Of a DNA stretch of 64,000 nt, positions 1,402 to 30,473 are shown in pieces. The stretch's first letter is position 1, and every line of letters starts with the position of its first letter. The position numbers and the translations under genes are program-made. Source of the stretch: Gammaproteobacteria bacterium (GTDB lineage: Bacteria > Pseudomonadota > Gammaproteobacteria > HTCC5015); contig JACDDA010000003.1 of assembly GCA_013817245.1 (NCBI GenBank), forward strand, positions 124,001-188,000, in the 5' to 3' direction. Under the pieces are notes generated by a model, which did not search any database, was not told the DNA's origin, and saw only the letters and a program-made list of their open reading frames with translations.

Positions 1402-1405
1402 AAAA

Positions 1406-9646: not shown

Positions 9647-9681
9647 ACGGTCTTCTTACCCTCTCACAATCAATAAAATAA

Positions 9682-10266: not shown

Positions 10267-10353
10267 AAAACGCTTCCTCCCGATTATCACAATAATTCTG
10301 CTATTTTTACTTTACGAATAACATCAACAATTTCGCGCCAAATCAATTCAATA

Positions 10354-12696: not shown

Positions 12697-12812
12697 GTAA
12701 AACAACCTGCAGCAAGCGCTCATCAATGAGCGTTAATGACACAGGTTTATACCCTATTTTGTGACACGACGGAAAGAACTAAGCAGAGATCTCTACAAAA
12801 ATTATTAGTGGC

Positions 12813-14057: not shown

Positions 14058-14118
14058 ATACGATTCCTTTCCTTGAAACCAGATCTTCTGCATTCGTTGG
14101 CGGCGATTGGCCGAAAAG

Positions 14119-14147
14119 CTTTAGACCAACTACACTCTATATATAAT
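14119..14147 (+). promoter_or_regulatory. Likely promoter of the MarC-family gene
   Basis: In the divergent gap between the HDOD gene and the MarC-family gene, a perfect -10 box TATAAT lies at 14142-14147. The hexamer TTTAGA about 16 bases upstream is only a moderate match to a -35 box. The spacing to the ATG at 14170 leaves a leader of about 15 bases. The surrounding AT-rich run (TATATATAATATAA) could also melt for the divergent gene. Confidence 0.4.
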
Positions 14148-14169
14148 ATAAATAACGAGTATTTTGCAC

Positions 14170-14760
14170 ATGACACTGACCGCTGCCATTATTTTGTTTT
14201 TCTTGGTGCTGGATCCTTTAGGCAATGTGCCGATGTTTCTTAGCATCTTGAAAAATCTACCGCCTGACCGTCAGCGCCAAATTATTGTGCGTGAATTATT
14301 AATCGCGCTACTCGTGTTATTACTTTTTATGGCACTTGGGAAATATTTTTTACAATTACTGCATATTAGCGAACCCGCCTTATCAGTCGCGGGTGGCCTC
14401 GTGTTATTTCTTATTGCAATCCGTATGGCATTTCCTCATCTGCAAGATATGCCCGACACTAACGACGACGAACCTTTTATCGTACCCTTAGCGATTCCTT
14501 TGGTTGCAGGGCCCTCTGCGATTGCGACGGTTTTATTAGTTATGTCACAATCACCCGAGCGATGGACTATTTGGTTAACCGCGTTGATTATTGCTTGGGG
14601 CATCGCCGCGCTTATCTTATATTTCAGCACTGCGTTTCATCGTTATTTAGGACGGAAAGGTTTAATGGCAATGGAACGTTTAATGGGAATGTTGTTAACG
14701 GTCATTGCAGTACAAATGTTTATGAACGGCATCGCTGATTTTATTCACACTCTAAATTAA
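14170..14760 (+). CDS. MarC/YhgN-family membrane protein
   Basis: A small integral membrane protein of the MarC family (UPF0056), whose transport substrate is not firmly known. Six hydrophobic helices are visible. The family signatures are the opening LDPLGNVPMF, the PLAIPLVAGP loop in the middle, and the terminal RLMGMLLTVIAVQMFMNG. ATG at 14170 is preferred to the TTG six bases earlier. The protein has typical length (196 residues). Confidence 0.87.
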   Translation: MTLTAAIILFFLVLDPLGNVPMFLSILKNLPPDRQRQIIVRELLIALLVLLLFMALGKYFLQLLHISEPALSVAGGLVLFLIAIRMAFPHLQDMPDTNDDEPFIVPLAIPLVAGPSAIATVLLVMSQSPERWTIWLTALIIAWGIAALILYFSTAFHRYLGRKGLMAMERLMGMLLTVIAVQMFMNGIADFIHTLN

Positions 14761-14810
14761 TCAACGCACAGGTTTATTTTTAATCTCAACAACAATAAAA
14801 AATATCTGCC

Positions 14811-15608
14811 ATGAACAATGATAACCAACAAATTTGTCGCGCTTTATGCATCGCTGAGCGTTTTCAGTTTGAATCACTATGCCAACATTTATTAAGTTAT
14901 CATCGCGGCACTCGTTATCGCGATGCACTGCATCTTGATGTCCCCAACGGCGCAGTTTTTATTTTTCATTACGGTGTCTTAGTCACATGGGGTCTTAACA
15001 AAACGGCACTGGATGATTTATTGTCCGAAGTTAATCTTTTTACCGATCAACCTTTAGCAGAACCCGAACGCGAAAGTTACAGCTTTCAATTAGGCGAACG
15101 CACGCATATGAGTAGCGATGTCATCACGCTCACGACTGACACCGTGCAAGAAAGACTGGCCTTATCACATGGTCTGGCGCAATCGGTCAAACTTAATACA
15201 TACGAAACGCGCGTGCGTAACACCATCACTAGCACCGTAGGCATTCCTGAAACACTGGCGCGCACGGGTCGCACACATTTAAGCCGACGCGCCATCGCAA
15301 AAATTCGTGGTCGCTTATTTTTAACAAAAGCGGATGTGATGCTGAACTATGACTTACTCGATACACCCGAATTTTTCTGGGAATATCCCGAACTCGAATC
15401 TTATTACGAAATCCCCGCACGTTATCTCGAACTTAAACAACGCATTGAAGTGCTGACGCTAAAACTCGGCACCATTCACGAATTATTAGAAATGCTCGCC
15501 GATGAACAAAAACACCAACACTCCGCATTTTTAGAATGGATCATCATCTGGCTAATTGCTTTAGAAATTTTTGCCTTCGTCTTTCACGACATCCTCGGTT
15601 GGTTTTAA
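14811..15608 (+). CDS. RMD1/YagE (DUF155) family protein
   Basis: The product matches the RMD1/DUF155 family by its layout: an N-terminal mixed region with NGAVFIFHYGVLVTWG, a middle part rich in charged residues (AIAKIRGRLFLTKADVML, FFWEYPELE), a coiled coil at about residues 205-240 and a single C-terminal membrane helix (IIIWLIALEIFAFVFHDIL). Yeast relatives sit in mitochondria; the bacterial role is unknown. It follows the MarC-family gene by 50 bases on the same strand. It likely anchors to the inner membrane by its tail. Confidence 0.8.
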   Translation: MNNDNQQICRALCIAERFQFESLCQHLLSYHRGTRYRDALHLDVPNGAVFIFHYGVLVTWGLNKTALDDLLSEVNLFTDQPLAEPERESYSFQLGERTHMSSDVITLTTDTVQERLALSHGLAQSVKLNTYETRVRNTITSTVGIPETLARTGRTHLSRRAIAKIRGRLFLTKADVMLNYDLLDTPEFFWEYPELESYYEIPARYLELKQRIEVLTLKLGTIHELLEMLADEQKHQHSAFLEWIIIWLIALEIFAFVFHDILGWF

Positions 15609-15631
15609 TCTCCACCCATAGCAGCAAGTAA

Positions 15632-15811
15632 TGGCACAAACCCCAGAATTTAGTTGCGGCTTATGCCCCGCTTTGGGAAGATGGCGCCGCAATATCTACT
15701 ATTGGATATTCACAGGAAGGTGGCGAGCGTGGACGCTTAAAAATAGCCTTTAGCAAGGAGGCTGGCCGCCTGTATGGCGAAAACAAGCAACAAAGAGAGC
15801 AACTAATATGA
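15632..15811 (+). pseudogene. Start-less ORF fragment coupled to the MDR oxidoreductase gene
   Basis: Between the RMD1 gene and the oxidoreductase, one frame stays open for 59 codons after a TAA at 15629 and has no ATG near its beginning. It reads like real protein (YAPLWEDGAA, GGERGRLKIAFSKEA, RLYGENKQQREQL). Its TGA overlaps the ATG of the next gene by 4 bases, as in coupled operon genes. The simplest reading is the 3' remnant of a deleted upstream gene. A competing 40-codon ATG frame starts at 15631. I do not recognise the parent family. Confidence 0.35.
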
Positions 15812-16758
15812 AAGCAATTGTTATAAATGAATTTGGCGGTCCTAACGTATTCAAAGACGCAGACGTTGACGCACCTAAACCCCTACACAATGAAGCCATT
15901 GTCCAAGTCCACGCGGCGGGCTTAAATCCTTTCGACACCAAAATGCGGGTCGGCAAATTAGCGCCTTTCTTTGGTTTAAAGTTACCTTTAATCATCGGCT
16001 GGGACGTTGCCGGTGTTGTTACTGAAGTTGGCTTCGACGTTGACGAAGTTAAAGTTGGCGACCGTGTGTACGGCATGATTCAACCGATTCGTCCGGGTTC
16101 TGCAGCAGAATACGTAGCAGTACAATCCGAATTTTTACGCGTTATGCCTGCCAAAATGAGTTTTGAAGAAGCAGCCGCCATTCCAATGGCAGCCGAAACC
16201 GCCTGGTTTGGTTTAGTCAACCTCGGCAAAATCAAAAAAGGTGATCGCGTATTAGTTCACGCTGGCGCCGGCGGTGTTGGCATGTATGGTATTCAAATCG
16301 CGAAAGCGATGGGCGCATGGGTTGCGACTACTTGCAGCACACGCAATGTTGAGTTCTGCAAATCATTAGGTGCAGATCAAGTCATCGATTACACCCAACA
16401 AGACTTCAGTAAAGAACTCAAAGACATCGACGTGGCCATTGACGTATTAGGCGGCGACGCCAACCTCAACACCTATAAAGTGTTGAAACGTGGCGGTACT
16501 TTATTGTGCGTATTACGTTACGACTTAGCCGATATGCAAAACCGCGAACGTCTTACCCAAGAACATGGCGTGAATGTACACACCGTTGTTTTCAGCAACA
16601 AGCCCGCCGCATTAGATGAACTGAATAAATTGTACGAAGCCGGTAAACTCAAAGTACATCACGAAGTGGTTCCGTTTAACGCTGCATCACTCACCAAAGC
16701 TCACGAACAATTAGAATCTGCTCGTACGCGTGGCAAGTTAGTCATGAAAGTTAAGTAA
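15808..16758 (+). CDS. Zinc-free MDR oxidoreductase, NADPH:quinone reductase-like
   Basis: A medium-chain dehydrogenase/reductase of the quinone reductase group. The GroES-like N-terminal half contains GWDVAGVVTEVG. The Rossmann half contains HAGAGGVGMYGIQIAK (about residues 151-166), the NAD(P)H-binding loop. Structural zinc cysteines are absent, as in quinone reductases. Length is 316 residues. It is the last gene before a strong bidirectional terminator. Natural substrate cannot be told; reduction of quinones or alpha,beta-unsaturated carbonyls is usual for the family. Confidence 0.85.
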   Translation: MKAIVINEFGGPNVFKDADVDAPKPLHNEAIVQVHAAGLNPFDTKMRVGKLAPFFGLKLPLIIGWDVAGVVTEVGFDVDEVKVGDRVYGMIQPIRPGSAAEYVAVQSEFLRVMPAKMSFEEAAAIPMAAETAWFGLVNLGKIKKGDRVLVHAGAGGVGMYGIQIAKAMGAWVATTCSTRNVEFCKSLGADQVIDYTQQDFSKELKDIDVAIDVLGGDANLNTYKVLKRGGTLLCVLRYDLADMQNRERLTQEHGVNVHTVVFSNKPAALDELNKLYEAGKLKVHHEVVPFNAASLTKAHEQLESARTRGKLVMKVK

Positions 16759-16780
16759 TTTTTTATTACTGAACAATAAA

Positions 16781-16806
16781 AACCCCGGCATGCCGGGGTT
16801 TTTTTA
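16781..16806. terminator. Bidirectional intrinsic terminator
   Basis: The core CCCCGGCATGCCGGGG is a perfect palindrome, with A-rich sequence on the left and a T-run of eight on the right. It stands between the convergent oxidoreductase gene and rlmI and can stop transcription from either side. Confidence 0.9.
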
Positions 16807-16854
16807 TAATGATGACTAGTCTGTGCTAAATGCTAAACAACCTACTCTTAAAAT

Positions 16855-18042
16855 TTACAAAACTCGTACAAACGCGCATTTTAAATATTCGGTTTCAGCA
16901 ATCGCCGGATGCACAGGATGATCGGGTGCTTGGCCGCCAAATTTTATAATTTGTGCTTGGCGTTGGCTGCGCACCGCAGCATGACGTACGGCATCGGTTA
17001 ATTCATCGCGACTTAAATGCATGGAACACGATGCACTGGCTAAGATACCGCCTTCGGGTAATAAACGCATCGCGAGTTCATTAATACGGCGATAGGCTTG
17101 CAAACCTTCTGCGTGATCTTTTTTGCGTTTAATAAATGCCGGTGGATCTAAAATAATCACATCAAACATTTCATTATTATCACGCAGTTGACGTAGTACT
17201 TCTAAGGCTTTGCCTCGTAAGCTTTTTACACTGTCACTCAGATTGTTTAACGCAGCATTACGTTGTACAAATTCTAATGCTTGTGCAGAGCTGTCAACAC
17301 ACACTACTTCTTTTGCGCCTGCTAATGCGGCTTGTATGCCCCACGCGCCTGCGTAACAAAATACGTCTAACACGCGTTTGCCTTGGCAAAATTGCGCAAG
17401 GTATTGGCGGTTATCACGGTGATCATAAAACCAGCCGGTTTTTTGGCCATCGCTTAATGACGCTTCAAAAATGGCATTGCCTTCACGCACGGGCAAAATA
17501 TCAGGCACGTCGCCCCAGGCTTTTTCACTATATAAAGGTAAGCCCTCTACTTCACGTACGCCGGAATCGTTTTTCCACCAAATACCGGTGGGTTTATAAA
17601 TCTCAATTAATAACGGTAATAAAATATCGCGCTGTTGTTCTACTGCCGCAGTGCCGATTTGCACCATCAAGGTGCCGCCAAAACGATCAATCACTAAACC
17701 CGATAAACCATCGGCATCACCAAAACATTGTCTGCCATATTCACTTAAGCCTAACCGCTCACGCAAAGCGTGGGCTTGTTGTAATTTTATTTTAATAAAT
17801 TCAGCATCAAAAGCTTGTTGCGCTTGACGGCTATAAACCCGCGCACAAATCAAACTGTTCGGACTGACTGTTGCCATGCCTTGAAAACGATTTTCACTGT
17901 CCATCACTTCAACGGTTTGTCCCGCGCTAAAAGAAGTCAGCTGATTTATTTTGCGATCAACTTCGTTGCTATAAATCCAACAATGACCTTGCCGTAAACG
18001 GCGTTCACTATTTTTAACTAATTGCAGACGTGAATATGACAT
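16855..18042 (-). CDS. rlmI: 23S rRNA (cytosine1962-C5)-methyltransferase
   Basis: RlmI adds a methyl group to C1962 of 23S rRNA. The N-terminal ~85 residues form a PUA-like RNA-binding domain, followed by an EEHEE-type region and a SAM-binding Rossmann fold (VLDVFCYAGAWGIQAALAGA, about residues 225-244). The substrate motif is LDPPAF near residue 300, and a catalytic Cys lies in ASCSMH near 340. Length of 395 residues is typical. Its promoter region contains a 15-base palindrome. Confidence 0.92.
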   Translation of the reverse strand: MSYSRLQLVKNSERRLRQGHCWIYSNEVDRKINQLTSFSAGQTVEVMDSENRFQGMATVSPNSLICARVYSRQAQQAFDAEFIKIKLQQAHALRERLGLSEYGRQCFGDADGLSGLVIDRFGGTLMVQIGTAAVEQQRDILLPLLIEIYKPTGIWWKNDSGVREVEGLPLYSEKAWGDVPDILPVREGNAIFEASLSDGQKTGWFYDHRDNRQYLAQFCQGKRVLDVFCYAGAWGIQAALAGAKEVVCVDSSAQALEFVQRNAALNNLSDSVKSLRGKALEVLRQLRDNNEMFDVIILDPPAFIKRKKDHAEGLQAYRRINELAMRLLPEGGILASASCSMHLSRDELTDAVRHAAVRSQRQAQIIKFGGQAPDHPVHPAIAETEYLKCAFVRVL

Positions 18043-18079
18043 GCGAGGTTCTCAACAAGAGGGCGAGGCGACTATACGG

Positions 18080-18094
18080 CAGTCACAGTGACTG
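18080..18094. promoter_or_regulatory. 15-base palindrome upstream of rlmI
   Basis: The sequence CAGTCAC-A-GTGACTG is a perfect 7-base inverted repeat around one central base. It lies 38 bases upstream of the rlmI start and downstream of the giant surface-protein gene. No T-run follows in either direction, so an operator is more likely than a terminator. It may be chance. Confidence 0.3.
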
Positions 18095-18122
18095 TCAATA
18101 TTGATAGCAGTATCAGGAATAA

Positions 18123-21100
18123 TTAATCGTCTAAACGTAAGGTGTGCTGATCAAACTTCCAGCGTAATTTTACATAAGGACCTTGCGCCGTATAAGCCGC
18201 TAATGAAAAATCCTTGTCACTAAAACCGGCAACGTTATAACCCAAGGTCATCCATAAATTGTCCGCCGCATTCCAGCCGGTGGAAACGCCGTATGAATAT
18301 TCTTGGTTATTCGCGGTATCTGCATACAAGATATCGCCATGCGTGCCGATGTCCCAACGCTCAGAAAGATCGTGACGATATTCAACCCCGGCATAATGAG
18401 TCAATCCGCTATAGTCTTCGTTATCAAAACGATCCAAAGTCCATTTCAAACCATAACGCAAACTCATTTCATTACGTGCGCTCATGCGCCAATATGCTTT
18501 CCAATTTTCAACCAATTTACTTTCATGCTGTACATTATCTAAATCGTCACCCGTTTGATTACCAGTTTGATTACCAGTTTGATTACCAGTTTGATTACCA
18601 GTTTGATTACCAGTTTCGTTGTAACGATAATCCAAGCGATTTAAATGCACCCAACTACGATCATCGGGACGATACACGAGTGAGAACCGCGCCAAGCTAT
18701 CTAATTGAAAACGCGCGTCGGCATAATCCGTACGATCCCAACGACCTTCCAGCGCATAACCAAAAGCCTGTTGCTTATCGTGCAACCAACCGATGCGCGC
18801 GCCTAGTTTGTCGCTAGTCTCCGCCTCACGATATTCAAGACGACTCACTAACGTTGCGTTGTCAATTTTATACGTAAGTCCGGTTGAATAAGCCGTGAAA
18901 TCTTCTGTTGCACCACTCGCGGGCACTGCATTTTGATTAAATTGATATGCCGGCATTTCAATCGTCTTAGTACGATCTACTTGTACATCACCGCTCCATG
19001 CTGCATTAATTCGGAAGCCTTGGATCAAACCCATCACGGCAAAAGTTCGTGGTCCATATTCGTTAGTGTCGCGTTCTACGCCGGTGTTGAGTCGTGCATC
19101 TTGCCACGGCGTACTGCGCACACCGGCACGGGTCATTTGTGTATCTAAATTTTCACCTTGCGCAATTTCATGTTCTGCATACAAGGTCACTTGTCGTAAC
19201 ACATCAAAATCAGCGCCGATGATGTGACGATCAGGATAAGCAGGGTTTGCATCTTTACCATTCAAACCTAATTCTGCGTTATAACGCAAACGTAGCGCAC
19301 CTTGTAAATAACGTGACTGCACACCGGCTAACCATTGTTCGGATAGATACTCATCACCTAATACTGTTTTATCAATCGATTGACGCAAGCCGGTGCTTAT
19401 TTCATAGGTTTGCCATTGATAATGAGCCAACGCTTCAGTGACTTGACGCTCAGCATCGGTGTTTTTATTCGTTTCATTAAAATGCTGACCATCAATGCGC
19501 CATGCATTATCAATTCTGTAACGCGCTTCTACACCGTATTTTGTTAAACCCGTTTCACTGCCCGCTTGTTGACCCAAACCAAAACCTGCATCTTGATCGC
19601 GCCAATAAGTACGACCCGTCACACTGCCGTTATCCCATGTATACGCGGCAGTAGTTGCATCTCCTTCACGCAGATCACCTGCTTCATCTTGTTCGGAGCT
19701 TGCATATTCCAATTTTAATTCACCGCCGACAATCTCACGCACCGTGATATCAACCCCACTTAATTGTCCGCTCGCACCATAGGTGCCGTCTTCAATATGT
19801 GACAAGCCTGTTTCAAATTGTTTATTGGAACTATACCAAGTCACACGACCACCACCGGTGACGTCGCCTTCTATGGGCGATTCTGTTTCGTATTCGGCAA
19901 CAATCAAAATAGGATTAAAATTAACACTGCGGCTCGCGATGGCTTGTTTGAAATAAATCGTACCGTCAAAGTAATCGATGTTGTAATCGTAATACCGTTT
20001 TAATTCTTCGCGACTAATAACCTGTTCAGAATGAAAACGATCACGTACTTCAATAACAATTGTTTCACTATTCAGCACAATGTTATTTTGACTTAAATGA
20101 TATAAGCCAGACGTGCCATCACCTTGAATTTCATCACGCATGAAGCGATGCTTGGTTTCAGTAGCAAACACCGTATAACCCAACTGATCGGCACGCCACT
20201 CGGATTTAAAACCGGTGACTGCGCGATTATATTTAGTTAACTCGGTTTCATTTAAACCCGTTTCAAAATCGCCATATAAGCCATAAAACTGATTTTTTTC
20301 TAATTTTAAATACAAAGGATCGCTACTCGATGCTTCATGGCGCACGATCGCTTTATCACCATACAAAGCAAAATGATCTTCTGGATTTGATTCCCAACCG
20401 AAAGCTTGTTCCATATCACGATTAGAATCATAAGCCGTCGTCAACAACCAATCATTGGCCAGCGTGCCTTTAGCAAACAATGCCAAACGCGCTGAATCGT
20501 CATCGTGTAAGTTATGCAAGGTTAACGCTTCATCGTCGCCGCTAGTATGATTCTCACCCGTCGTGCCTTCGGCTAAACCAACCACAATCCACTTGCGCGG
20601 CTCGGCACTTAACCAGACATCGACCGTTTGAATTTTGGTTTGAGTTTGCGCTTGATTAAAAGCAAATTGCAAAGTGGCTTTGCCGGTTGTAGTAGTAGGT
20701 TCCAATTCAATTTCAGCAATACCTTCTTCGCCCACTTGATAATAAGCTTTGTCAGTATCAAAAGCCGCCAATGGATCAGCTTGCATTGCATCAAATCGTT
20801 GCGCGCTTAAATAAGGTTTAGCAATCATAAACTGTCCGCGTAGACCGCTACGCACGGGCTTGTTCCAACGATCTAATAAGCGCACTGCAATCACCGGACG
20901 TGTTTGACCATCCGCCAACAATCTAGATTTTTCTGCTACCCATTCAACCCGTACCGGCAAACCTGAAAAGTGGTAAGTTTTTTCTAAGACAATCACTTTC
21001 GCATTGGCATCACGTATTTCAAAACGCAAAGTGTTATCACCTTCTTGCAAATGAATGCCTTGCCAATAACTACGCGCCACGGTGCCTTGAGTATTTTTTA

Positions 21101-24100
21101 AACTGCCAAAGAAAAATAATCCGCTTAAAGGCTCACCATTAATAAACGCGCTGATTTGATCTGTGGGTTGATGCTTAATCGCGACATTCAACGCCGGTAT
21201 TGCAGGCTGGAAATTTTCTTCTGGCAACAACCATTCAACGCCAGGGCTTGCTTGTTGCAACCATGCTTCATCGAATTGTTCAATGCCTTTTTTCTCAAGT
21301 AATTTTTTAGGCTGTTCTTTAATCGGTGTTAACGCAACACTCACTGGCGCACTATCAGGAACGGCCGCAAATGAAAATGCTTGACTTTGAGTGCTTTGCA
21401 CGGCAATGCTTAACCATGCGTGTTGCGGATCAACATTTTCTGTAATAGCACGTGCAATGACGCGTTCATTCGCAACGCCTAAACCTTCTGACAAATAACG
21501 CTGTACTTCTTGCATACGCGCATTCAATAAAACATCCGCAGGTGCTCTTAAGGAGAACATGACTTTGCCCGGATGCAACTCTAACAACAGCGGTAATTTT
21601 TCATCTAAGCGTTTTTTATCATCAGGCGTTAAATAAGGTTTACCCGCCGAAAAATTCAATGGGATCTCTACGGACTGTTGCTTAATCGCTTCGGGCTTAG
21701 TAACCAACATCGTGCTTAAAGGTGGCATATTAATCATTTGTTCATTAGCGGAAAACACAATGCTTGCACGACTGGTCAAGCTGGCTTGTTGCGCAGCAAG
21801 GTCTAATAATTTTGCTGAAAAAGTTAATGTGTGCGGTGTTTTGCCACTGACATCACCCGCGCGAAAAATCAGCATGTTTTCCATTATTTCTGGTGTTACC
21901 GCTTTATTATTCCAATTAGCCGATTGCGCTGAATATTGCACGCCTTCAGGTAAAACGAGCGTCATCCGTACGTTATTTAAAGTGGCGCCCGCATTATCAA
22001 AATCCAGCGTATAACTTATGTCGTCGTTATTTAACGAGGTATGCAATTTTCCTAATACTTGCTGAATGCTTTTATCATCTTTTTGTAAATAAAAATCGGC
22101 CGCCCATAGATCACCACCGCGTAATTCTACAAACTGCGAATGTAATCGACCGCTAAAACGTGTATTACCGCCACAATGCGCGATACGATAATGCGCGGGC
22201 AAAGTTTCAGTATCAATTTGCACAACATGCGTGCCAGCGGGAATTGCTTCGAAATGATAACGACCTTTAGCATCGGTCGTAACATAACGACCATCTTCCA
22301 TATAAATGCGCACGCCTTCGACACCTTGCGGTAAATCTGCCGCATTGCTTACTTTGCTGGTTTCGTTATAACCGCGCACTTGACCTGTGACAACACCGCT
22401 ATCGGCTAAAATGATTTCTTCAACATAAGGTTCAACCGGGACACGCGCACGTATTGTGATATCCACGCGACGATTCATCGCTTGACCATCTTGACTGACG
22501 TTATCCGCAACCGGATCACGCGTACCAAATCCTTCGATGCGCACTTGTTGATCGCTTAAACCTAAGGCAACTCGAATATACGGTGCGATGGCTTCTGCGC
22601 GTGCGCGCGATAAATCTTGATTATTGGCAAACACCGCTTGTGGCGAGGCTTTTATAGGACGCGCATCGGCATAACCTTTGATGCTAACAGTTGCCACTTC
22701 ACTGCCTTGCATGACTTCAATGATGCGTTGCAATTGTTCACGTTCTAAATTATCTAATTCCGCAGTTAGCGTTTCAAATATAGGTCTGAAAACGTATTCG
22801 CGTTCTGCAAAACGTGTGGGTTGACGACGCATCACATTTTTCGCCAAGGCGCCTTCTGCATTTTTTTGTAAATCTGTGTTTATTAAAAGTTTAGCCTCCG
22901 CAACAAAACGCCCCGCTTGTTGACGATCAAGCGCTGCACTAAAATTAATGTTTGCTAATTTATCACTGATCGCAGCAGCCGGTACTTCTAACAACCACAC
23001 TTCATTTTTTTGCGTTACTTGAGTGACTGGCAATGCAACGTCATTAACACTAACCGAATTTGTTTGTAATTTTTGATTACTAGGCAAACGTAATTCAAGC
23101 CACGCTTTTTCTAATGCAACTTTTTTTACCGTAGCCGTTAATTCGTACACAACCAAATCATTCGATAAATGACTGCGCATTTGTAACTGTGACTCACCAT
23201 CGCCGGGCATGCCATCGGGACAAGCACCCGTCATCACTTGCCCGACGATATAACCATCTTTACGTAAGAAAGGATCCGTCACGCTAACGGCGGCTTGGCC
23301 TAGGTTAGAACGAATGCCGGTACTTAATATTTGCGCATACGCACTGTTAACCGCTTTACCAATTATTGTACTAGCGCCTACTTCAACAACATAACGTACT
23401 TGGGTTTGGCTATTTGCAGACAAATCATGCAATAAAATTTGTAACTGTTCGCCTTTATTATCAATGATGGGATCCGTAACTACTTGATCATTGATACGCA
23501 AAGAACCGGCTTGATAACGAAAACCTTTTGGCATGCGATCAAACAATACAACTTCTAATGCAGCACTAGCCGCTGTATTTTGCACGCTGATGTTGTACTG
23601 CAGATAATCACCGAGCTCAACGCGTTCTTTATTAACCGTTTTTTGTACTACGAGTTGCGTTGTTAAAGGATCAACCGGAATATCCACGCGCAGCGGCGGT
23701 CCTGGATTCACAGTAAAACTATTGCCGTACGATGCATTAGCATTTAAAGCAAACGGCGCATTGGGTAAGGCTTGCAAACTAGTAATAGCAACTTGCGACG
23801 GCGCCAAATACGTGCTGCTCGACAACACTTGCAAACGATAACTTTTCGGCACTACTAAAGGAAAACGATAACGACCCGTAGGAAAATTATAAACCGTGCC
23901 GCCAGAATCAGTTGCCACATCACCCGTGACTAAGGTATTTGGAAATGCGCTAACGCCATCATCACCAAAAATATCCACGCCCGGAATGGCTGGTTGATTC
24001 GTCGCATTATCAATTAAACGTACCACGATACCATCGACTGCTGCACCGGTTTGACTGTTAAACACGACACCAAAAGGATCCACTAGCGTATTCACGCTAA

Positions 24101-24884
24101 TCACATCACTGGCATCATTAGGATCGGTGTAAGAAAAATTCACACCGCTATCAGCGGCCACGGATAATGCGCAATCAAACAGTGTTACCGCCACATTTGC
24201 GGTTTGCACATAGCCAATAAACACACCCGTGTTTACACCGGTTTCACGTAACTCTATTTCTTCGGTATCGCCTACGCTGCTAGTTACAATTACATTAATT
24301 ATTTCCGCAATCGCCGCATTAGCATTTTGATCAGCATCGGTCACGCGTACAAAAATTGGTGCATTCGCAGCAAACAAATTATTCACTGCGAGTGGCAATG
24401 CGGTATTGGGATCTAAGGTTAAAACGCCTGCGCCTGGATCAACGTACGTGGGATCTGCGGAAACAACAAACGGTCCACCTGCGCCACTGCGACATTGACT
24501 CGGCGTGGCTTGATTGATTGTGCCGCCTGGACGATATTGCAATAAATCCATCGCGGCAACTGTGCTAGGTGCGCTAGTAATTAATGAAATGGTATTACTA
24601 TTATTTAAAAATGGCGCGGCACTAATGTCGTATTGCGCTTGCGCAGTATTATTAATCACGGTGCCATTGGGTACAGACCAAGCAGCATTCACGCATACAA
24701 CACATGCGATAAATCCCACACATTTAATCAACAGGGCTTTCCAATGAACAATGCGCATTACTTGCACATTGCTCATTAGAAAGCGCGCGTTACTTTGCAT
24801 AACGCACACAAGCGAACGCCAACAGCGTTGCAATCCATTTTGCAACGCTGTTTTTGTTCTTTTGCTGTTAAACAACATTTGCAT
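18123..24884 (-). CDS. Giant outer-membrane protein with DUF11, OmpA-like, Ig-like and C-terminal barrel regions (2253 aa)
   Basis: Reading order, with approximate residues: a long N-terminal extension ending in a hydrophobic signal sequence (49-70); a beta-rich region with a carboxypeptidase-like or SdrD-like repeat (300-400); a DUF11 domain (410-495, QKTVNKERVELGDYLQYNI); an OmpA C-terminal domain (690-830) with NNQDLSRARAEA and MNRRVDITI; another CNA-B-like unit (830-895, GVEGVRIYMEDGRYV); a second weaker OmpA-like region (1080-1170); a Big-1-like Ig domain (1300-1425); then ~800 residues of alternating amphipathic strands with many aromatic ends, consistent with a large beta-barrel. It ends TLRLDD, without the classical terminal Phe. 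I infer anchoring both to peptidoglycan and to the outer membrane. A normal signal peptide would start at MRIVHWK (24758). Lying last of five exported genes, it is the likely anchor of a surface structure. Confidence 0.75.
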   Translation of the reverse strand: MQMLFNSKRTKTALQNGLQRCWRSLVCVMQSNARFLMSNVQVMRIVHWKALLIKCVGFIACVVCVNAAWSVPNGTVINNTAQAQYDISAAPFLNNSNTISLITSAPSTVAAMDLLQYRPGGTINQATPSQCRSGAGGPFVVSADPTYVDPGAGVLTLDPNTALPLAVNNLFAANAPIFVRVTDADQNANAAIAEIINVIVTSSVGDTEEIELRETGVNTGVFIGYVQTANVAVTLFDCALSVAADSGVNFSYTDPNDASDVISVNTLVDPFGVVFNSQTGAAVDGIVVRLIDNATNQPAIPGVDIFGDDGVSAFPNTLVTGDVATDSGGTVYNFPTGRYRFPLVVPKSYRLQVLSSSTYLAPSQVAITSLQALPNAPFALNANASYGNSFTVNPGPPLRVDIPVDPLTTQLVVQKTVNKERVELGDYLQYNISVQNTAASAALEVVLFDRMPKGFRYQAGSLRINDQVVTDPIIDNKGEQLQILLHDLSANSQTQVRYVVEVGASTIIGKAVNSAYAQILSTGIRSNLGQAAVSVTDPFLRKDGYIVGQVMTGACPDGMPGDGESQLQMRSHLSNDLVVYELTATVKKVALEKAWLELRLPSNQKLQTNSVSVNDVALPVTQVTQKNEVWLLEVPAAAISDKLANINFSAALDRQQAGRFVAEAKLLINTDLQKNAEGALAKNVMRRQPTRFAEREYVFRPIFETLTAELDNLEREQLQRIIEVMQGSEVATVSIKGYADARPIKASPQAVFANNQDLSRARAEAIAPYIRVALGLSDQQVRIEGFGTRDPVADNVSQDGQAMNRRVDITIRARVPVEPYVEEIILADSGVVTGQVRGYNETSKVSNAADLPQGVEGVRIYMEDGRYVTTDAKGRYHFEAIPAGTHVVQIDTETLPAHYRIAHCGGNTRFSGRLHSQFVELRGGDLWAADFYLQKDDKSIQQVLGKLHTSLNNDDISYTLDFDNAGATLNNVRMTLVLPEGVQYSAQSANWNNKAVTPEIMENMLIFRAGDVSGKTPHTLTFSAKLLDLAAQQASLTSRASIVFSANEQMINMPPLSTMLVTKPEAIKQQSVEIPLNFSAGKPYLTPDDKKRLDEKLPLLLELHPGKVMFSLRAPADVLLNARMQEVQRYLSEGLGVANERVIARAITENVDPQHAWLSIAVQSTQSQAFSFAAVPDSAPVSVALTPIKEQPKKLLEKKGIEQFDEAWLQQASPGVEWLLPEENFQPAIPALNVAIKHQPTDQISAFINGEPLSGLFFFGSLKNTQGTVARSYWQGIHLQEGDNTLRFEIRDANAKVIVLEKTYHFSGLPVRVEWVAEKSRLLADGQTRPVIAVRLLDRWNKPVRSGLRGQFMIAKPYLSAQRFDAMQADPLAAFDTDKAYYQVGEEGIAEIELEPTTTTGKATLQFAFNQAQTQTKIQTVDVWLSAEPRKWIVVGLAEGTTGENHTSGDDEALTLHNLHDDDSARLALFAKGTLANDWLLTTAYDSNRDMEQAFGWESNPEDHFALYGDKAIVRHEASSSDPLYLKLEKNQFYGLYGDFETGLNETELTKYNRAVTGFKSEWRADQLGYTVFATETKHRFMRDEIQGDGTSGLYHLSQNNIVLNSETIVIEVRDRFHSEQVISREELKRYYDYNIDYFDGTIYFKQAIASRSVNFNPILIVAEYETESPIEGDVTGGGRVTWYSSNKQFETGLSHIEDGTYGASGQLSGVDITVREIVGGELKLEYASSEQDEAGDLREGDATTAAYTWDNGSVTGRTYWRDQDAGFGLGQQAGSETGLTKYGVEARYRIDNAWRIDGQHFNETNKNTDAERQVTEALAHYQWQTYEISTGLRQSIDKTVLGDEYLSEQWLAGVQSRYLQGALRLRYNAELGLNGKDANPAYPDRHIIGADFDVLRQVTLYAEHEIAQGENLDTQMTRAGVRSTPWQDARLNTGVERDTNEYGPRTFAVMGLIQGFRINAAWSGDVQVDRTKTIEMPAYQFNQNAVPASGATEDFTAYSTGLTYKIDNATLVSRLEYREAETSDKLGARIGWLHDKQQAFGYALEGRWDRTDYADARFQLDSLARFSLVYRPDDRSWVHLNRLDYRYNETGNQTGNQTGNQTGNQTGNQTGDDLDNVQHESKLVENWKAYWRMSARNEMSLRYGLKWTLDRFDNEDYSGLTHYAGVEYRHDLSERWDIGTHGDILYADTANNQEYSYGVSTGWNAADNLWMTLGYNVAGFSDKDFSLAAYTAQGPYVKLRWKFDQHTLRLDD
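18553..18612. repeat. Five tandem copies of a 12-base unit encoding NQTG
   Basis: The unit GTTTGATTACCA is repeated five times without error and followed by a diverged sixth copy (GTTTCGTTGTAA). On the coding strand it gives five Asn-Gln-Thr-Gly units after an NETG. It lies in the C-terminal barrel of the giant protein, followed by a charged stretch (DDLDNVQHESK), as expected for an exposed loop. Because the unit is a multiple of three, copy-number changes would alter loop length without breaking the frame. Confidence 0.9.
24821..24852. repeat. Perfect 13-base inverted repeat near the 5' end of the giant gene
   Basis: AACAGCGTTGCAA pairs fully with TTGCAACGCTGTT around a 6-base loop. On the plus strand it is followed by five T, so it has the form of a terminator for antisense transcription. 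On the coding strand it would fold just after the stop of the upstream gene. In the long annotation it encodes residues ~11-21 of the giant protein; if translation begins at 24776 or 24758 it is a non-coding intergenic hairpin. Confidence 0.8.
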
Positions 24885-24895
24885 AAAGCGTTGCG

Positions 24896-26233
24896 TTATT
24901 GCACAACCGCATTAAACATAATGTCGACTGACTCACCGGCTTTTAATTCGCCAACCGTATAGTTGTTTGGCACATCAGCTGGTAATACCGTGCTTAAATC
25001 AACGCTAAAGGTATTGCCAATAATAACTGCGGCAGTGGTTAAATTAAAATTAACCGTGGCACGTTCATTACCGGCACCATCATTGTTGTATTGCACACGT
25101 ACACCATTACCTGCAACACCACTCACAGTAGCGCAAGCAGCGGGACCTACAGGTGCAGGACTAACACAACCTGCCGCAATTAAATTCGGATCAAATACCA
25201 ACGTTACTGGCAAAATATCCGAAATAGTCGTCAAGGTTGCGGAAGCGCCGCCCGTATTGCGAATGCGCACAACATAACGCATATGTGATCCAGGAATTGC
25301 TTTGGGATTACTATTTGCATTCACTGGATCCCAAATCACACCACCCAAATTCGCCGGTGTTGCCAACGTTCCATCAATCACTTTGGAAATTGTCAACGTG
25401 GCGGTTTGCACACGAAATGCACCGCTATCAGAGTGTTGGCCATTACGCGCAATATCAGCAGCACCCGCACTATTCAAATCACCAACAGGATCATTGAACA
25501 CCACTTGTACTGTTGCCGTATTGTCAGCAATGTTTGACGCGGCACCACCAGGACTAATGTTGCCATTATTGTCGTTAGTGATATTTGCGCCTTGTACTGC
25601 TGCGGCTCCACCTTGTGCAATTTGCGCAACTAATGTGTGTGCTGATATATCACCATTGAGACGCGCAATAGGAATCTGCGCACGGATATAGACAGTAGCC
25701 GTTTGATTGCGGCCTAACTCATCTACAAACGTTGCTGTATCACTGGCAGGCACATAACCACTAACCGCTACTGAACCATCATTGGTGTAAGCACCGCTAT
25801 CAACAAAGACTTGTACCGCCGTTGCATCAAAGTTATCAGCGCCACCGAATGGATCGGTTGCATTTAATAATGCGGACAAACTAAAGTCTTGTACCGCGTT
25901 ACCATTGTTAGTAACAGTAAAGGTCAAAATCACGCTAGCGTTGTTCTGTCCCGGCACCACATTCACATAAGTACCAATTCTTTCTAGTACTGCGAAGTTA
26001 ACCAAGCGATCTTCAACAAACGTGGTACTTACACCATTACCAATACCCGCAGTAAGATTACCTGTAGGCGAGGATTCGATCGGCGTTTGTGCTACACCAC
26101 CCGCGGAAAAATTTACCGTGGCGCGATTAGCAATGGTGTCGCCAGCATTCGCTAATGCTAATGGGCTAACCAAAAACGCTAATGAACCCCATAACATCAG
26201 ACTTATTTGTCTTATGGGTTGAATCATTTTCAT
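24896..26233 (-). CDS. Exported DUF11-domain protein (445 aa)
   Basis: A Sec signal peptide (MKMIQPIRQISLML...ALANA, cleavage about residue 30) is followed by beta-rich sequence with few Cys and many Asn, Thr, Ala and Gly. The C-terminal ~170 residues carry a DUF11-like domain (LTISKVIDG, SNPKAIPGSHMRYVVRIRN). The same SNPKAIP motif occurs in the first gene of the block, so the domains are paralogous. The start at 26233 has a textbook AAGGAG box; an in-frame extension reaches an ATG at 26326. The giant gene begins 11 bases after its stop in the long annotation. Surface or periplasmic structural role inferred. Confidence 0.75.
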   Translation of the reverse strand: MKMIQPIRQISLMLWGSLAFLVSPLALANAGDTIANRATVNFSAGGVAQTPIESSPTGNLTAGIGNGVSTTFVEDRLVNFAVLERIGTYVNVVPGQNNASVILTFTVTNNGNAVQDFSLSALLNATDPFGGADNFDATAVQVFVDSGAYTNDGSVAVSGYVPASDTATFVDELGRNQTATVYIRAQIPIARLNGDISAHTLVAQIAQGGAAAVQGANITNDNNGNISPGGAASNIADNTATVQVVFNDPVGDLNSAGAADIARNGQHSDSGAFRVQTATLTISKVIDGTLATPANLGGVIWDPVNANSNPKAIPGSHMRYVVRIRNTGGASATLTTISDILPVTLVFDPNLIAAGCVSPAPVGPAACATVSGVAGNGVRVQYNNDGAGNERATVNFNLTTAAVIIGNTFSVDLSTVLPADVPNNYTVGELKAGESVDIMFNAVVQ

Positions 26234-26539
26234 AACATTTCTCCTTGGGAGATTATTGCTAAAATTTCCTTCACTCAAATCACCGCAGTCATCCCAGACC
26301 GAAGTTAAAAAATTTCTGGCGTTCATGGCGGTCCCCTTTCAAAAAACAATAAAGGCCCGTGTCTCGCCTGTAAGCAAAACAATGGGCCATCACGAGAACG
26401 ACTTTTATAATTAATATTGCGTTGCAGCATTCGCCGCAACTGTGGTTTGAATAGGTTCATGTTCCCCCCGGAACAAACTTACTGCATAAAATTACTTAAA
26501 TATAAAATTACTTAAATATAAAATTACTTAACCCTAAAA
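26234..26539 (-). promoter_or_regulatory. 306-base structured leader between two surface genes
   Basis: This gap precedes the 445-aa protein gene. On the minus strand it has three hairpins. GTTCC-CCCC-GGAAC lies at 26461-26474. An 8-base stem with a 4-base loop lies at 26421-26440 (one G-T pair). A GGCCC/GGGCC pair at 26354-26388 is followed by TTTATTGTTTTTT, the form of a weak terminator or attenuator. Bases 26234-26326 are also open in frame with the gene and preceded by AGGGGA, so a leader peptide or N-terminal extension is possible. It matches no riboswitch that I know. Confidence 0.5.
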
Positions 26540-26549
26540 CTACTTAACA
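26486..26549. repeat. 16-base tandem repeat at the 3' end of a surface gene
   Basis: The unit ATAAAATTACTTAAAT occurs at 26486, 26502 and 26518 (the third with a changed end), and a diverged fourth copy runs from 26534 into the last codons and stop of the 164-aa protein gene. The array therefore seems to have grown outward from the end of that gene. It is very AT-rich and not a multiple of three. Confidence 0.85.
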
Positions 26550-27034
26550 AGTGTTCTAAAGGTTACGTTTGCTTCCTGTTGCGGCTTTAACTCATTCGTA
26601 TAACGCCAACGAATGTCGGTGTAGTCTTCAATAGTGGCGGCACGTAATTTACCGTCGCCGTCTTTCACTTTAAGATTTTCAGGCTTGTCATAACGTTTGC
26701 CACCATCAACCGAGTACTCAATAACGGTGCCGGCACCAACAGCGCTATCTTTTTTATACACAGAGTTATTTGGAATGGGATTAGTAATCACAATATCGCT
26801 AAGCGCTTTATTGCTAATGTTTTTAAATGTCGTGATGTAAAAAATTTCATCTTTCGGCAACGCCACGCCGGGCGGCACCAGCTTGATAACTTCTTTACCT
26901 TTTTCATTTACTTTAATTTCTTTAAACGCTTCATTTTTTAATTGGATCGCACTATCAGCCGCTAACACAGTGACGGCATACGTGCCCATTAAAAAAAATC
27001 CTGTTTTTACTACTTGAAGCAATAGTTTATTCAT
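26540..27034 (-). CDS. Small exported DUF11-like protein (164 aa)
   Basis: A Sec signal peptide (cleavage after about residue 25, VLAADS) is followed by one DUF11-like beta-sandwich: FYITTFKNISNKALSDIVITNPIPNN is the usual core of the family (a transition from repeated N-x-S to D-P-I-P). The rest is Lys-rich and soluble. It may be a chaperone-like or capping subunit of the block, but this is a guess from its single-domain form and position. The gap to the preceding gene is 11 bases. Its last codons lie in the 16-base tandem repeat. Confidence 0.72.
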   Translation of the reverse strand: MNKLLLQVVKTGFFLMGTYAVTVLAADSAIQLKNEAFKEIKVNEKGKEVIKLVPPGVALPKDEIFYITTFKNISNKALSDIVITNPIPNNSVYKKDSAVGAGTVIEYSVDGGKRYDKPENLKVKDGDGKLRAATIEDYTDIRWRYTNELKPQQEANVTFRTLVK

Positions 27035-27045
27035 AACATTTCCTC

Positions 27046-28068
27046 TTAATTAATAACGACATAAAATTCAATAACAAAATTTGCAGGTGGAGAAATACTC
27101 ATGCTGCCAGCGGCGCTTAAATCGACAGTAATAGCGCCCGCGTTACTGATATTAAAATCAGCGTAATCCAGCGGCGCATCCACGCTATCAGTTTGCGCGG
27201 CACTATTGAGCAATAAGCTATTCGCCTGATAAGTCGTGTTGGCAGGAATGGCATCCACAATGATTAAATTATCTACGGCTTGTGCGCCGCTCACGGACAC
27301 GTCTAAACGGTAGCGCAAGGTCGCACCGGTACTCGGCACGTTGCCACCTACTAAATCATTTACAGTTACTGATTTAACAATACTGACTGCCGAGTTAATC
27401 ACTTCATACGCATGCGTTTGTGCGTAGGTGCCGCCATTAAAACCAACGACAGCATCCACACCACCATCACCCGCGCCATTTAAAACAGCGCCAACATTTC
27501 CCACTGCGCCAGCGGTGTTTGCAGTGTCGGACGTTATAGTTAATTGCACTTGAGCAATGTCAGCAGCAATGCGGCTTGCCGGTATATCCGCAACGACAAA
27601 CACCACGACGTCATCATTACCGCCGGTGGCGCCATCTAACAATGGGCCATTGCTGCCGTTATATAAAACGTCAATCGCATTATTAAAAAGGCCATTACTA
27701 TCACTATCAATCCAAATAGCGACATTAATAGGATCAAAATCATCGGTGATTAACGCTGCATTGGCGGACAATAAAAATAATTCATCACCGTTGCCAATGT
27801 TGCTTACTCTAAAAGTTAACACGCGTTGTGTGTCGGGCGACAACACCGCTACATTGCTCGCATCTAACGACACGACTACCGCATCCAATAACTCATCAAC
27901 AGAAAAATCCACTGACGCCGAAACAGTGCCAGGCTGACCTTGCGCAACATAATCCACAGTAGCGGTTGAACTCACCACCGTATTCGCTTTGGTACCCAGT
28001 GCATGCGCATGCATTGTCGTTACACTCAGTAACAACAAACTACTCACGCGGAGTAAATGACGCATCAT
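27046..28068 (-). CDS. Exported DUF11-type beta-rich protein (340 aa)
   Basis: A signal peptide ends near residue 23 (MHAHALG). The body is acidic, rich in Val, Asp, Asn and Ala, with no Cys after the leader. Residues ~230-340 form a DUF11-like domain (VSIVKSVTVNDL, RYRLDVSVSGAQAVDNLIIVDAIPANT). The N-terminal half (VDELLDAVVVSLDASNVAVLSPDTQRVLTFRVSN) resembles the equivalent part of the 445-aa protein, whose text has LTFTVTNNGNAVQDF at the same place. It overlaps the first gene of the block by 4 bases (ATGA). Probably a structural surface subunit. Confidence 0.75.
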   Translation of the reverse strand: MMRHLLRVSSLLLLSVTTMHAHALGTKANTVVSSTATVDYVAQGQPGTVSASVDFSVDELLDAVVVSLDASNVAVLSPDTQRVLTFRVSNIGNGDELFLLSANAALITDDFDPINVAIWIDSDSNGLFNNAIDVLYNGSNGPLLDGATGGNDDVVVFVVADIPASRIAADIAQVQLTITSDTANTAGAVGNVGAVLNGAGDGGVDAVVGFNGGTYAQTHAYEVINSAVSIVKSVTVNDLVGGNVPSTGATLRYRLDVSVSGAQAVDNLIIVDAIPANTTYQANSLLLNSAAQTDSVDAPLDYADFNISNAGAITVDLSAAGSMSISPPANFVIEFYVVIN

Positions 28069-30473
28069 TGCAAACGTACTCGAAACAGAATATCAAACGA
28101 AGGTGCACCACTTCCGGTATCACCGCTTAATACGCCTTTAGGATTTATCCGAATGAAATTAATCGGCGGTACTGTTGTATCGTAACCAAAACCATCAATC
28201 GTCGGAGTTACGTAACTAGTACCACCATTATTAGAAAATGCTACGTCATCAGTTACGCTCGCTAAACTGGTAAACGTAAACGTCAATCCGCTCACGGGCG
28301 TGCCATTAATAAAATTGATTGGATTTAATGGCGCACCAAAATAAAAACGACTGTTTGACGGAATCGGATCTGTAATAACAATGGAATCAGTATCCGCAGC
28401 GGCGCCGCTATTCGTTACGCGTACGCGGTATTCCATAATTGCCGCTGGAATGGCTTTGGGATTACTCACACCATTCACAGGATCGCTTTGCGTTGAGACT
28501 AATTTTAAAATAGATAAAATCGGTCCTGGTACTTGGAAAGTTGTTAAAGCAATATCCGATACTGTGCCTTCTGTGCCTTCATCCGCAATCACACGCACGC
28601 CCCATGTACCGCTCGGCGCACTCAACGGAATGGTGTAACTACGTTCAAATGTTTTTACTGCACCTAACGCAGGTGGTGATAAAGGCGCAACTTCATTCAT
28701 CGCAATCGATAACTGCGTGACGCCGCTAGGATTGGTAATCACTACGCGCGCGGCACTCACATCATTTTGACCAAAAGGATCGCTCACCACTGCACGCACA
28801 TACACGGTGCTGCCCAGTAAAAATGTACCGGTAATTACACCACCGGCATACGCCGCGTTATAAGTATTAACGCTATCAACATTAATAACGGTGGTTGCTG
28901 GCAAAACAATGCGCGAGGTGCGCGCCGTTACCGTGTCGTAAGGATAAATCAAAATATTTTGACCACCGCCACCGGCAGGAGAGTTATCAATCGTAACGCG
29001 CACAACCGCATTTGCGGGTAACGTAAACGGTGTGCCTAATGCAGGATTTGCGCAATTCGTCGCGCTGCCGTTTTGTACTACATTAATAGTGAATTCATTG
29101 CTTATCGTCGTACTCAAAGACGCGCCCGCAATGGTTAAATCTGTACACCCTATGTTGGTTGTTGTTACGCCTACGGTATACGACACAATGGCACGCACAA
29201 TGCGATTGCTGCCGTTATTATCACGACGCATTTGCAACACAACAGGAATCGGGGTTGTCGCTAAACTTAAGGAGGCTTGCAGCACAGGTGTAATTTCCCA
29301 ACTAACCGGTGTTGCGTTGCGAGCAATGCTAATGCTTGCAGGTGTACTCGCACTGGTCCGCGGTACACGTGACATATCATACGGCGAACCCGCGCCATCC
29401 AAATTAAAATATAAAGGCTTGTTTCCGCCCGCCGGTGTAGTTGGCATCACGTTGAGCGCTGCATTGCGCGTAGCAATAAAATTTTGCGAGACCGGAAATG
29501 GGATACTGTTACCGCGAATCGTCAGCGTGGCACTTGGCGTCGTCACACCTTGTGGCGCATTCGCCGTACCACCCGCAAACGGTCCGCGATTGACTGTGCG
29601 ACTTTGATTTAATGCGTAGGTGCCTGCGAGACCGGATAAATCTAATGTGTAAGTGTTGCTGACATCAACATTGCTAAGCTGAAACGCTTGTTCGCCCGTA
29701 TTCGTTAAACGATAACAGTAATAAACATTTTCGCCAGTTTGCACGGTTAGATTAGTTTGTTGATCGCTGCAACTCGCGTTAGTACTTACCCATGTATCGA
29801 GCTGCGCACCGGCATACGATAAATTCAAACAAGCTTGACTAACATTTCCGCCGTCATTGTTGGCGCGATCATCCACTAATACTTGCCAAGTACCATACGG
29901 ATTTTGGCCATTCACTAGCGACAACAAATTGCTTACAGGTGTCGCGTGCGGCTTATAAGTACCGTTGTAAACAGGTGGGCCACCTGCGCAGGCTGCGGCT
30001 TCAAGGGTTTGTGCGCCAGCATCATCAAATGTAGTAGTAAAATTATCGAGAGCACAACCCGATGGCGGGCCACCCACTTGACCATCTGTTGCAACACCAG
30101 GGCGATCAAACAAAATTACATTCGTTGATGTGGGAGATGTAACACGTGCATACAAATCGCCGACCCATGTGTGAGTGGCATTGACGGACACATTCGCGTC
30201 AATCACGTAGCCGCTGTTACCACCCGTGACAGGAAGATTTACGGTTGCACTATTGGGCGGTGCGCCAGTGGTTAACGTCCAACCTGCACCACCATTGGTG
30301 TTACAAATATTGGCAGCATGTGCAGTTGAAATCTGACCAAGAAATAAATAGAAAAACGCAGACGACAAAAATCCTACCCACCACATTGCGTGATTTGTAG
30401 TTTTGATCGAAGCATTCGACAGCACAATGTCCAACACTCGATCAGCGCCCCATCGCGAGCTTGCTGTCGTCAT
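28065..30473 (-). CDS. Exported protein with P/Homo-B domain and C-terminal DUF11 domain (802 aa)
   Basis: First gene of the surface block. It starts at 30473 after a GGGAAG box. The leader is long: 30 polar residues, then a hydrophobic core ending at ISTAHA (about residue 53). Mature residues ~55-215 look like a proprotein convertase P/Homo-B domain (HTWVGDLYARVTSPTST, PYGTWQVLVDDRANNDGG, QACLNLSYAG). In most proteins this domain follows a subtilase; no protease domain is present here. Further beta-rich repeats follow, and the last ~150 residues hold a DUF11 domain with SNPKAIPAAIMEYRVRV. Four or more Cys suggest disulfides. Role: adhesive or structural, inferred. Confidence 0.75.
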   Translation of the reverse strand: MTTASSRWGADRVLDIVLSNASIKTTNHAMWWVGFLSSAFFYLFLGQISTAHAANICNTNGGAGWTLTTGAPPNSATVNLPVTGGNSGYVIDANVSVNATHTWVGDLYARVTSPTSTNVILFDRPGVATDGQVGGPPSGCALDNFTTTFDDAGAQTLEAAACAGGPPVYNGTYKPHATPVSNLLSLVNGQNPYGTWQVLVDDRANNDGGNVSQACLNLSYAGAQLDTWVSTNASCSDQQTNLTVQTGENVYYCYRLTNTGEQAFQLSNVDVSNTYTLDLSGLAGTYALNQSRTVNRGPFAGGTANAPQGVTTPSATLTIRGNSIPFPVSQNFIATRNAALNVMPTTPAGGNKPLYFNLDGAGSPYDMSRVPRTSASTPASISIARNATPVSWEITPVLQASLSLATTPIPVVLQMRRDNNGSNRIVRAIVSYTVGVTTTNIGCTDLTIAGASLSTTISNEFTINVVQNGSATNCANPALGTPFTLPANAVVRVTIDNSPAGGGGQNILIYPYDTVTARTSRIVLPATTVINVDSVNTYNAAYAGGVITGTFLLGSTVYVRAVVSDPFGQNDVSAARVVITNPSGVTQLSIAMNEVAPLSPPALGAVKTFERSYTIPLSAPSGTWGVRVIADEGTEGTVSDIALTTFQVPGPILSILKLVSTQSDPVNGVSNPKAIPAAIMEYRVRVTNSGAAADTDSIVITDPIPSNSRFYFGAPLNPINFINGTPVSGLTFTFTSLASVTDDVAFSNNGGTSYVTPTIDGFGYDTTVPPINFIRINPKGVLSGDTGSGAPSFDILFRVRLQ

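Follow-up and report, generated by a model that had tools for sequence, protein, structure and literature searches.

The DUF11 domain (PF01345) has been renamed CLIPPER and is a CnaA-like sandwich in which an Asp-catalysed Lys-Asn isopeptide bond links the first and penultimate strands (PMC12617251). The triad of the CLIPPER structure PDB 9IFR consists of Lys715, Asp748 and Asn806 (PMC12617251). Here we describe a five-gene locus at positions 18123-30473 (minus strand) of a 64,000-nucleotide stretch, the window, from a gammaproteobacterium of the HTCC5015 lineage (assembly GCA_013817245.1, contig JACDDA010000003.1, positions 124,001 to 188,000). Reading of the open reading frames (ORFs) gave proteins of 802, 340, 164, 476 and 2253 aa, named g802, g340, g164, g476 and the giant. 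The locus shares the domain family and the Lys/Asp/Asn positions with the CLIPPER adhesin domains, and the giant has an intact copy. However, the bond of 9IFR lies within one chain, whereas here the acceptor is at a C-terminus and the donor hairpin on the next N-terminus. The locus is probably an export-and-assembly system for a cell-surface fibre, with split, self-locking CLIPPER joints and the giant as its base.

Chaperone-usher pili (FimD/PapC, FimC/PapD, PF00577) resemble the system proposed here in their Ig-like subunits, N-terminal donor, large barrel with a plug, dedicated small Ig-like partner and tip. The usher barrel has 24 strands, whereas about 40 are predicted for the giant; the donor here has two strands with isopeptide residues, and g164 is of the acceptor type and not a PapD fold by sequence. 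The usher family PF00577 had no match in the giant or the whole genome, and the E. coli control was positive. The archaeal threads (Saci_0406) are head-to-tail donor-strand filaments with a proposed covalent N-terminal bond between subunits (PMC9715654). Their bond runs from an alpha-amine to Asn, from subunit n to n+2, and these crenarchaeal threads have no barrel and no DUF11 (PMC9715654). SpyTag/SpyCatcher is similar in being a split domain, a strand piece plus a catcher, closed by a Lys-Asx isopeptide bond. That pair was engineered from CnaB, whereas the present split is apparently natural and of the CnaA type, and its hairpin tags are at N-termini. A literature search, with subscription literature largely out of reach, found no published description of the locus, in line with an initial annotation of the window, which knew of no characterised five-part set.

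Split DUF11/CLIPPER domains

The giant (18123..24884, minus strand, as are all features below) contains one complete internal DUF11/CLIPPER domain (residues 406-551, 23232..23669), the template for the split domains. Its triad (K415, D449, N513) matches the positions of Lys715-Asp748-Asn806 in 9IFR and is kept among 58 giants at K in 56, at D in 58 and at N in 57. With one canonical DUF11 as the query, phmmer did not recover 9IFR, so the mapping of the triad rests on the published residue numbers and the intact domain of the giant.

The proteins g340, g476 and g802 likewise finish with a DUF11/CLIPPER domain, whose chain ends right before the Asn-bearing strand. The C-terminal motif [IVL]xFx[VA]x[VIL][NQDKE]-end was found in 37/39 g340, 48/63 g476, 18/19 g802 and 49/59 g164 proteins, compared with 27/525 control ORFs. 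Alignment to the giants' domain showed the acceptor Asp in 43/43 g340, 50/50 g476 and 16/18 g802 proteins. The acceptor Lys is kept in 43/43, 44/45 and 14/16, respectively, counted in family alignments because an insertion stops this Lys from aligning to the giants' domain model. The Asn column of the alignment to the giants' domain is empty in every acceptor domain. A full fold that unites Lys, Asp and Asn on a single chain is found only in the internal copy of the giant, and in no C-terminal domain. The acceptor domain of g802 (residues 656-802, 28068..28508) carries K657 (28503-28505) and D702 (28368-28370), and its chain ends FRVRLQ-stop without an Asn strand. That of g340 (27049..27387) carries K232 (27373-27375) and D272 (27253-27255) and ends EFYVVIN-stop, and that of g476 (24899..25399) carries K315 (25382-25384) and D370 (25217-25219) and ends MFNAVVQ-stop.

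In g340, g476 and the giant, the mature N-terminus opens, right behind the signal peptide, with a hairpin of the form GTxxGTxI-N-TAxVxY...SNxV. A regular expression detected this Asn hairpin in 35/42 g340, 44/52 g476 and 43/63 giant proteins; with those giants it missed read by eye, the count rose to about 56/60 full giants. The background was 0/15 in g802, 1/56 in g164, 21/539 in control ORFs and 2.8% in shuffled N-termini. The hairpin of g340 comprises residues 24-56 (27901..27999). The hairpin of g476 (AGDTIANRATVNF..., 26042..26155) and that of the giant (GTVINNTAQAQY...SNTISLIT, 24570..24677) have their Asn intact in the window copy, at N67 (26126-26128) and N79 (24648-24650), respectively.

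Both pieces are joined in intact tandem proteins, namely in L036 (...ILTFQVNVN followed by AGLPTGPLNNTAQYVY) and in L078 (...SLSFDVTIN followed by SGIPSGTALSNSADIS). Concatenation of the g476 hairpin with the g340 C-terminus raised the domain score compared with shuffled (p 3e-12) and with other segments (p 2e-13). In this scoring, the signal was weak with a generic DUF11 hidden Markov model (HMM) built on 14 distant domains and stronger with the domain of the giants.

The AlphaFold model of g340 (40 sequences) had a mean predicted local distance difference test (pLDDT) score of 89.5, and its chain ends on a strand. The second Foldseek match of g340 was the donor-strand-complemented Saf pilus 5y9h, at a low template modelling (TM) score of 0.26. 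The N-terminal hairpin reached a pLDDT of 95-97 in this monomer, and DUF11 is common in adhesins, both of which would suit a hairpin that closes the C-terminal domain of its own chain or caps the middle domain, the proteins being independent adhesins that are merely co-transcribed. We consider this improbable. In the model, the last two strands of the g340 middle domain are supplied by that domain itself. In g802, g164 and the long tip proteins described below, there is an open domain without a hairpin, and the giant shows the reverse; at least those unpaired ends need partners. Complementation in trans between subunits is likely, and a covalent bond between them seems a reasonable expectation, if a less secure one.

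Conservation of the gene set and g164

The first relatives of the giant belong to several families within its class, and their neighbourhoods were then read. The barrel sequence alone as a query of genome contigs gave no match, and an alignment of the conserved barrel core as the query succeeded. Scanning one genome per species with this alignment yielded 395 stretches with relatives, of which 80 were kept. They come from Woeseiaceae and other Gammaproteobacteria, a Moraxellaceae metagenome-assembled genome, Sideroxydans, Ramlibacter, Sphingopyxis, Geomonas, Desulfuromonas, Nitrospirae and Zetaproteobacteria.

Dozens of genomes from the Gamma-, Beta-, Alpha- and Zetaproteobacteria, the Desulfobacterota and the Nitrospirae share the order g340-g164-g476-giant, which is more than chance. 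Linkage in relatives, a predicted C-terminal barrel and export signals on the small proteins had been set beforehand as tests of the initial annotation, and the locus passed all three. A strict HMM test of the order g340-like/g164/g476/giant was passed by 35/49 loci, with median gaps of 10, 71 and 23 bases. Held-out loci from a sample of the phylum, outside all model building, had the identical arrangement. Judged from these sequences, g340, g164, g476 and the giant are a widespread conserved gene set. Locus L031 has all five genes in identical order, and in L030 and L032 g802 is placed behind the giant. Homologues of g802 lie either upstream of g340 or behind the giant, and g802 is by gene position a movable fifth member. 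The giant of L032 (3025-9025, genome G088) is in three ORFs, possibly through frameshifts or assembly errors. Regulators near the loci of relatives (a sigma-54 activator, GGDEF-EAL proteins and histidine kinases) were considered as parts of the system and rejected, not being common to the loci.

Of the 49 loci in which the giant was complete and the upstream sequence long enough, 48 had g164. In the 94 relatives, the full-length gene occurred in 8/8 genomes with a long barrel and in 0/86 others (Fisher p 9e-12, with genomes taken as independent). It was found in 20/293 near-complete genomes sampled from the phylum (about 7%). The g164 gene is the signature of the system. The window copy (26540..27034) has one DUF11-like domain with a flush C-terminus, an acceptor-type domain without a donor hairpin, in which N85 (26780-26782) replaces the catalytic Asp. 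This column holds Asn in 45 g164 sequences and Asp in 10. The lack of a donor and the Asn in place of the catalytic Asp point to a cap or chaperone, and we give even chances to a transient, non-reactive role of this kind.

All five proteins have a start resembling a signal peptide (judged by eye), which is kept in relatives. The reading confirmed the initial annotation in this export and in the close spacing of the genes. The ORFs of g802 (28065..30473) and g340 (27046..28068) share 4 bases (28065/28068), and 11 bases separate g340 from g164 and also g476 (24896..26326) from the giant (24896/24884). The spacer between g164 and g476 is 213 bases long and holds a 16-bp tandem repeat (3.9 copies, 26486-26547) that overlaps the end of g164; this repeat might modulate expression of the downstream genes. 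The flanking genes are ordinary (DUF4197 and an rRNA methyltransferase).

DUF11-like domains had been assigned to four of the proteins; Pfam/NCBIfam profiles and family alignments placed the DUF11-type repeat TIGR01451 in all five. The giant (61.9 bits) and g164 (24.6 bits) scored above the cut-off of 24. The scores of g340 (21.9), g476 (21.6) and g802 (17.8 bits) were below it, and family alignments support all three. The P/Homo-B domain previously noted in g802 was found at 28.4 bits (cut-off 21). The exported g802 combines this P-domain with a C-terminal acceptor and no N-terminal donor hairpin, and is proposed as the tip. The proteins g340 and g476 each have a donor hairpin, a middle domain (DUF11-like in g340) and a C-terminal acceptor, and are proposed as the shaft subunit and the basal shaft subunit, respectively.

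Barrel-bearing genomes also contain unlinked DUF11 proteins with a flush C-terminus, several of which carry Lys and Asp without a donor, and none of five DUF11 proteins from genomes without the barrel was flush. In Sideroxydans (L078, 13758-20369), a 2203-aa protein with 12 DUF7933 and 9 DUF11 domains has a flush acceptor end and no donor. In genome G077 (L127, L129, L130) there are many unlinked flush-acceptor DUF11 proteins that lack a donor, and four lie consecutively in L129. In their sequences, the Sideroxydans protein and the unlinked G077 proteins look like exchangeable tips. The Sideroxydans cluster also has a histidine kinase/response regulator pair upstream. In genomes without the system (L134, L135, L150, L164), DUF11 proteins often have terminal hydrophobic-plus-Arg tails that resemble sorting signals of the PEP-CTERM/exosortase type.

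A second, paralogous locus with a different organisation lies about 120 kb off in the same genome (L029, G000:C3:264476-284475; minus-strand ORFs 627-5849 and 5849-18412). There, a 1740-aa OmpA/barrel protein, whose barrel is about 31% identical, adjoins a 4187-aa protein with many DUF11 domains, and g164 is absent. Two-gene pairs resembling L029 were seen in G022, G069, G011 and G002.

The giant and its predicted barrel

The giant has a donor hairpin, the complete CLIPPER domain, an OmpA domain, SdrD_B-like and Ig-like parts and a C-terminal barrel, and is the proposed anchor and assembly platform. The Ig-like domain and the barrel of the initial annotation were supported by AlphaFold. The model of the C-terminus (51 sequences; mean pLDDT 82, predicted TM score 0.75) showed two Ig-like domains (20607..21236, the second Invasin_D3-like) followed by a barrel (residues 1433-2245, 18150..20588) with about 40 predicted antiparallel strands. 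By our own count on the model, the long loops are all on one side, after odd strands, with one exception, and short turns follow the even strands; this pattern fits a barrel whose two ends are periplasmic. The sole exception is a highly conserved 70-residue insert at strands 8/9 (19914..20123, GDGTSGLY...DYNIDY), on the periplasmic side in a plug-like position. A 12-bp in-frame tandem repeat (5.7 copies, NQTG x5; 18549..18616) encodes a low-confidence loop between strands 33-34 that is predicted to be extracellular. Slippage at this repeat would alter the length of the loop and keep the frame.

The barrel region had no match in Pfam, and a PDB sequence search returned Ig-domain matches only. 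Foldseek against the PDB gave general barrel matches (SlpA, SprA, PapC and TonB-dependent receptors), with no TM score above about 0.3. The giant was considered as an usher, SprA, SlpA or MtrB and each was rejected, as there was no family match and no TM score above that value. SprA, with 36 strands, has been called the largest barrel identified (PMC7463736). No solved structure resembles the modelled barrel, which may exceed in size every other single-chain outer-membrane barrel predicted to date.

The OmpA-like peptidoglycan-binding domain (residues 703-805, 22470..22778) scored 51.7 bits with PF00691 (cut-off 27.2), and D740 and R762 form the Asp/Arg pair for peptidoglycan at the usual binding positions. 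Because this pair is kept, the N-terminal half of the giant is expected to be periplasmic and bound to peptidoglycan. A second OmpA-like stretch that had been proposed at about residues 1090-1180 obtained no score in the profile search, so only the first of the annotated OmpA domains held. Pfam/NCBIfam searches also showed SdrD_B/carboxypeptidase-regulatory-like and Invasin_D3-like stretches. No SLH domain was found in the giant by profile search.

A peptidoglycan-binding N-terminal part with a C-terminal barrel is also the plan of SlpA/OmpM. The SlpA barrel has 30 strands and is attached to peptidoglycan (PMC9388160), and SlpA gave the best Foldseek matches of the barrel model (E 2.5e-9). Together with the conserved Asp/Arg of the OmpA domain, this would suit an outer membrane-peptidoglycan tether of the Deinococcus SlpA/OmpM type, in which the giant is a structural connector or porin and the DUF11 proteins form accessory layers, periplasmic or on the surface, that do not polymerise in an ordered way. 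This explanation is unlikely, although the least so of the alternatives. The TM scores are only about 0.2, and SlpA/OmpM have SLH and a coiled coil instead of OmpA/DUF11, a 30-strand trimer and no split-domain partner operon. The system, with g164 in 7% of the sampled genomes, is also less universal than tethers. A tether would leave unexplained the flush acceptors with their invariant Lys/Asp, the hairpins with Asn, the conserved order of the genes and the strict co-occurrence of g164.

The SprA protein of the type IX secretion system (T9SS) is likewise a very large single-chain barrel (36 strands, PMC7463736), and its partners share a beta-sandwich C-terminal domain; the shared flush C-terminal domain here is of the DUF11 type. 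All partners of the giant end flush with one domain type, the unlinked flush proteins occur in barrel genomes, and SprA was among the Foldseek matches (E 1e-6, prob 0.94). A T9SS-like secretion system might be read from this, with the C-terminal DUF11 as the sorting signal, the giant as a SprA-like translocon and the N-terminal hairpins incidental. However, the TM score to SprA was 0.10-0.15, there was no SprA_N or PDB sequence match, the giant has OmpA, DUF11 and Ig domains, and the host is not of the Bacteroidota. The SprA_N profile had no match in the genome, a weak negative since the positive control was also silent. Such secretion would leave two features unaccounted for, namely that the strands missing from the C-terminal domain are precisely those at the next N-termini and that Lys/Asp is retained, and we regard it as quite unlikely, slightly more so than the tether.

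Proposed fibre model

Three acceptors (g802, g340, g476) and three donors (g340, g476, giant) allow one possible chain. In the proposed fibre, the order would be g802 (tip)-g340-g476-giant (anchor), identical to the gene order. Each N-terminal hairpin would fill the open C-terminal domain of its neighbour, a donor-strand complementation with two strands at once, and a Lys-Asn isopeptide bond would then lock the joint like a natural SpyTag/SpyCatcher. We speculate that g164 shields the hairpins before assembly without reacting. The giant would hold the base of the fibre and be bound to peptidoglycan through its OmpA domain; the barrel with its plug-like insert could be the outer-membrane exit or platform. 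Passage of the fibre through the barrel is the simplest guess, and the odds that the barrel is the exit seem balanced.

The reactive Lys and catalytic acid are on one chain and the Asn on another, as in an assembly of the SpyTag/SpyCatcher type.

Several observations weigh against this model. As an exception to the pattern of residues, the family Asn of g340 is Ser34 in the window copy (27967-27969); the g802-g340 joint would therefore be non-covalent in this organism. In the domain-score test, the g802-g340 concatenation showed no gain, and the g476-giant concatenation showed none over other giant segments, a contaminated control. The confident prediction of the g340 hairpin in the monomer belongs here too. 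In genomes that lack the long barrel, three proteins likewise terminate at DUF11, although there the domain is complete and includes its last hairpin; this weakens the flush C-terminal DUF11 as a sole diagnostic. The loci were selected by barrel similarity and are related to each other, not independent. The strand number and closure of the barrel are predictions. The N-terminus of the giant should be periplasmic, which is a difficulty for a surface-reaching fibre joined to it.

The surface scaffold fixed by the giant in the initial annotation was the right general idea, and that annotation missed the split domains with the ordered fibre that they suggest, the near-universal, altered g164, the barrel of about 40 predicted strands and the second locus. 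It is possible, at slightly less than even odds, that the locus represents a new class of fibre in several Gram-negative phyla, free of sortase and usher, with autocatalytic split-CLIPPER locks between subunits, a catalytically dead DUF11 protein as chaperone or cap, and assembly on or through the largest known single-chain outer-membrane barrel, itself fixed to peptidoglycan. If true, covalent fibre assembly of the SpyTag/SpyCatcher type would have arisen naturally, and in Gram-negatives, where covalent pili are unexpected. The hairpin/catcher pairs would be ready-made orthogonal pairs for protein engineering. The outer membrane would have one more assembly pathway, with a barrel exceeding SprA in size, and a large set of unannotated DUF11/OmpA genes would gain a function.

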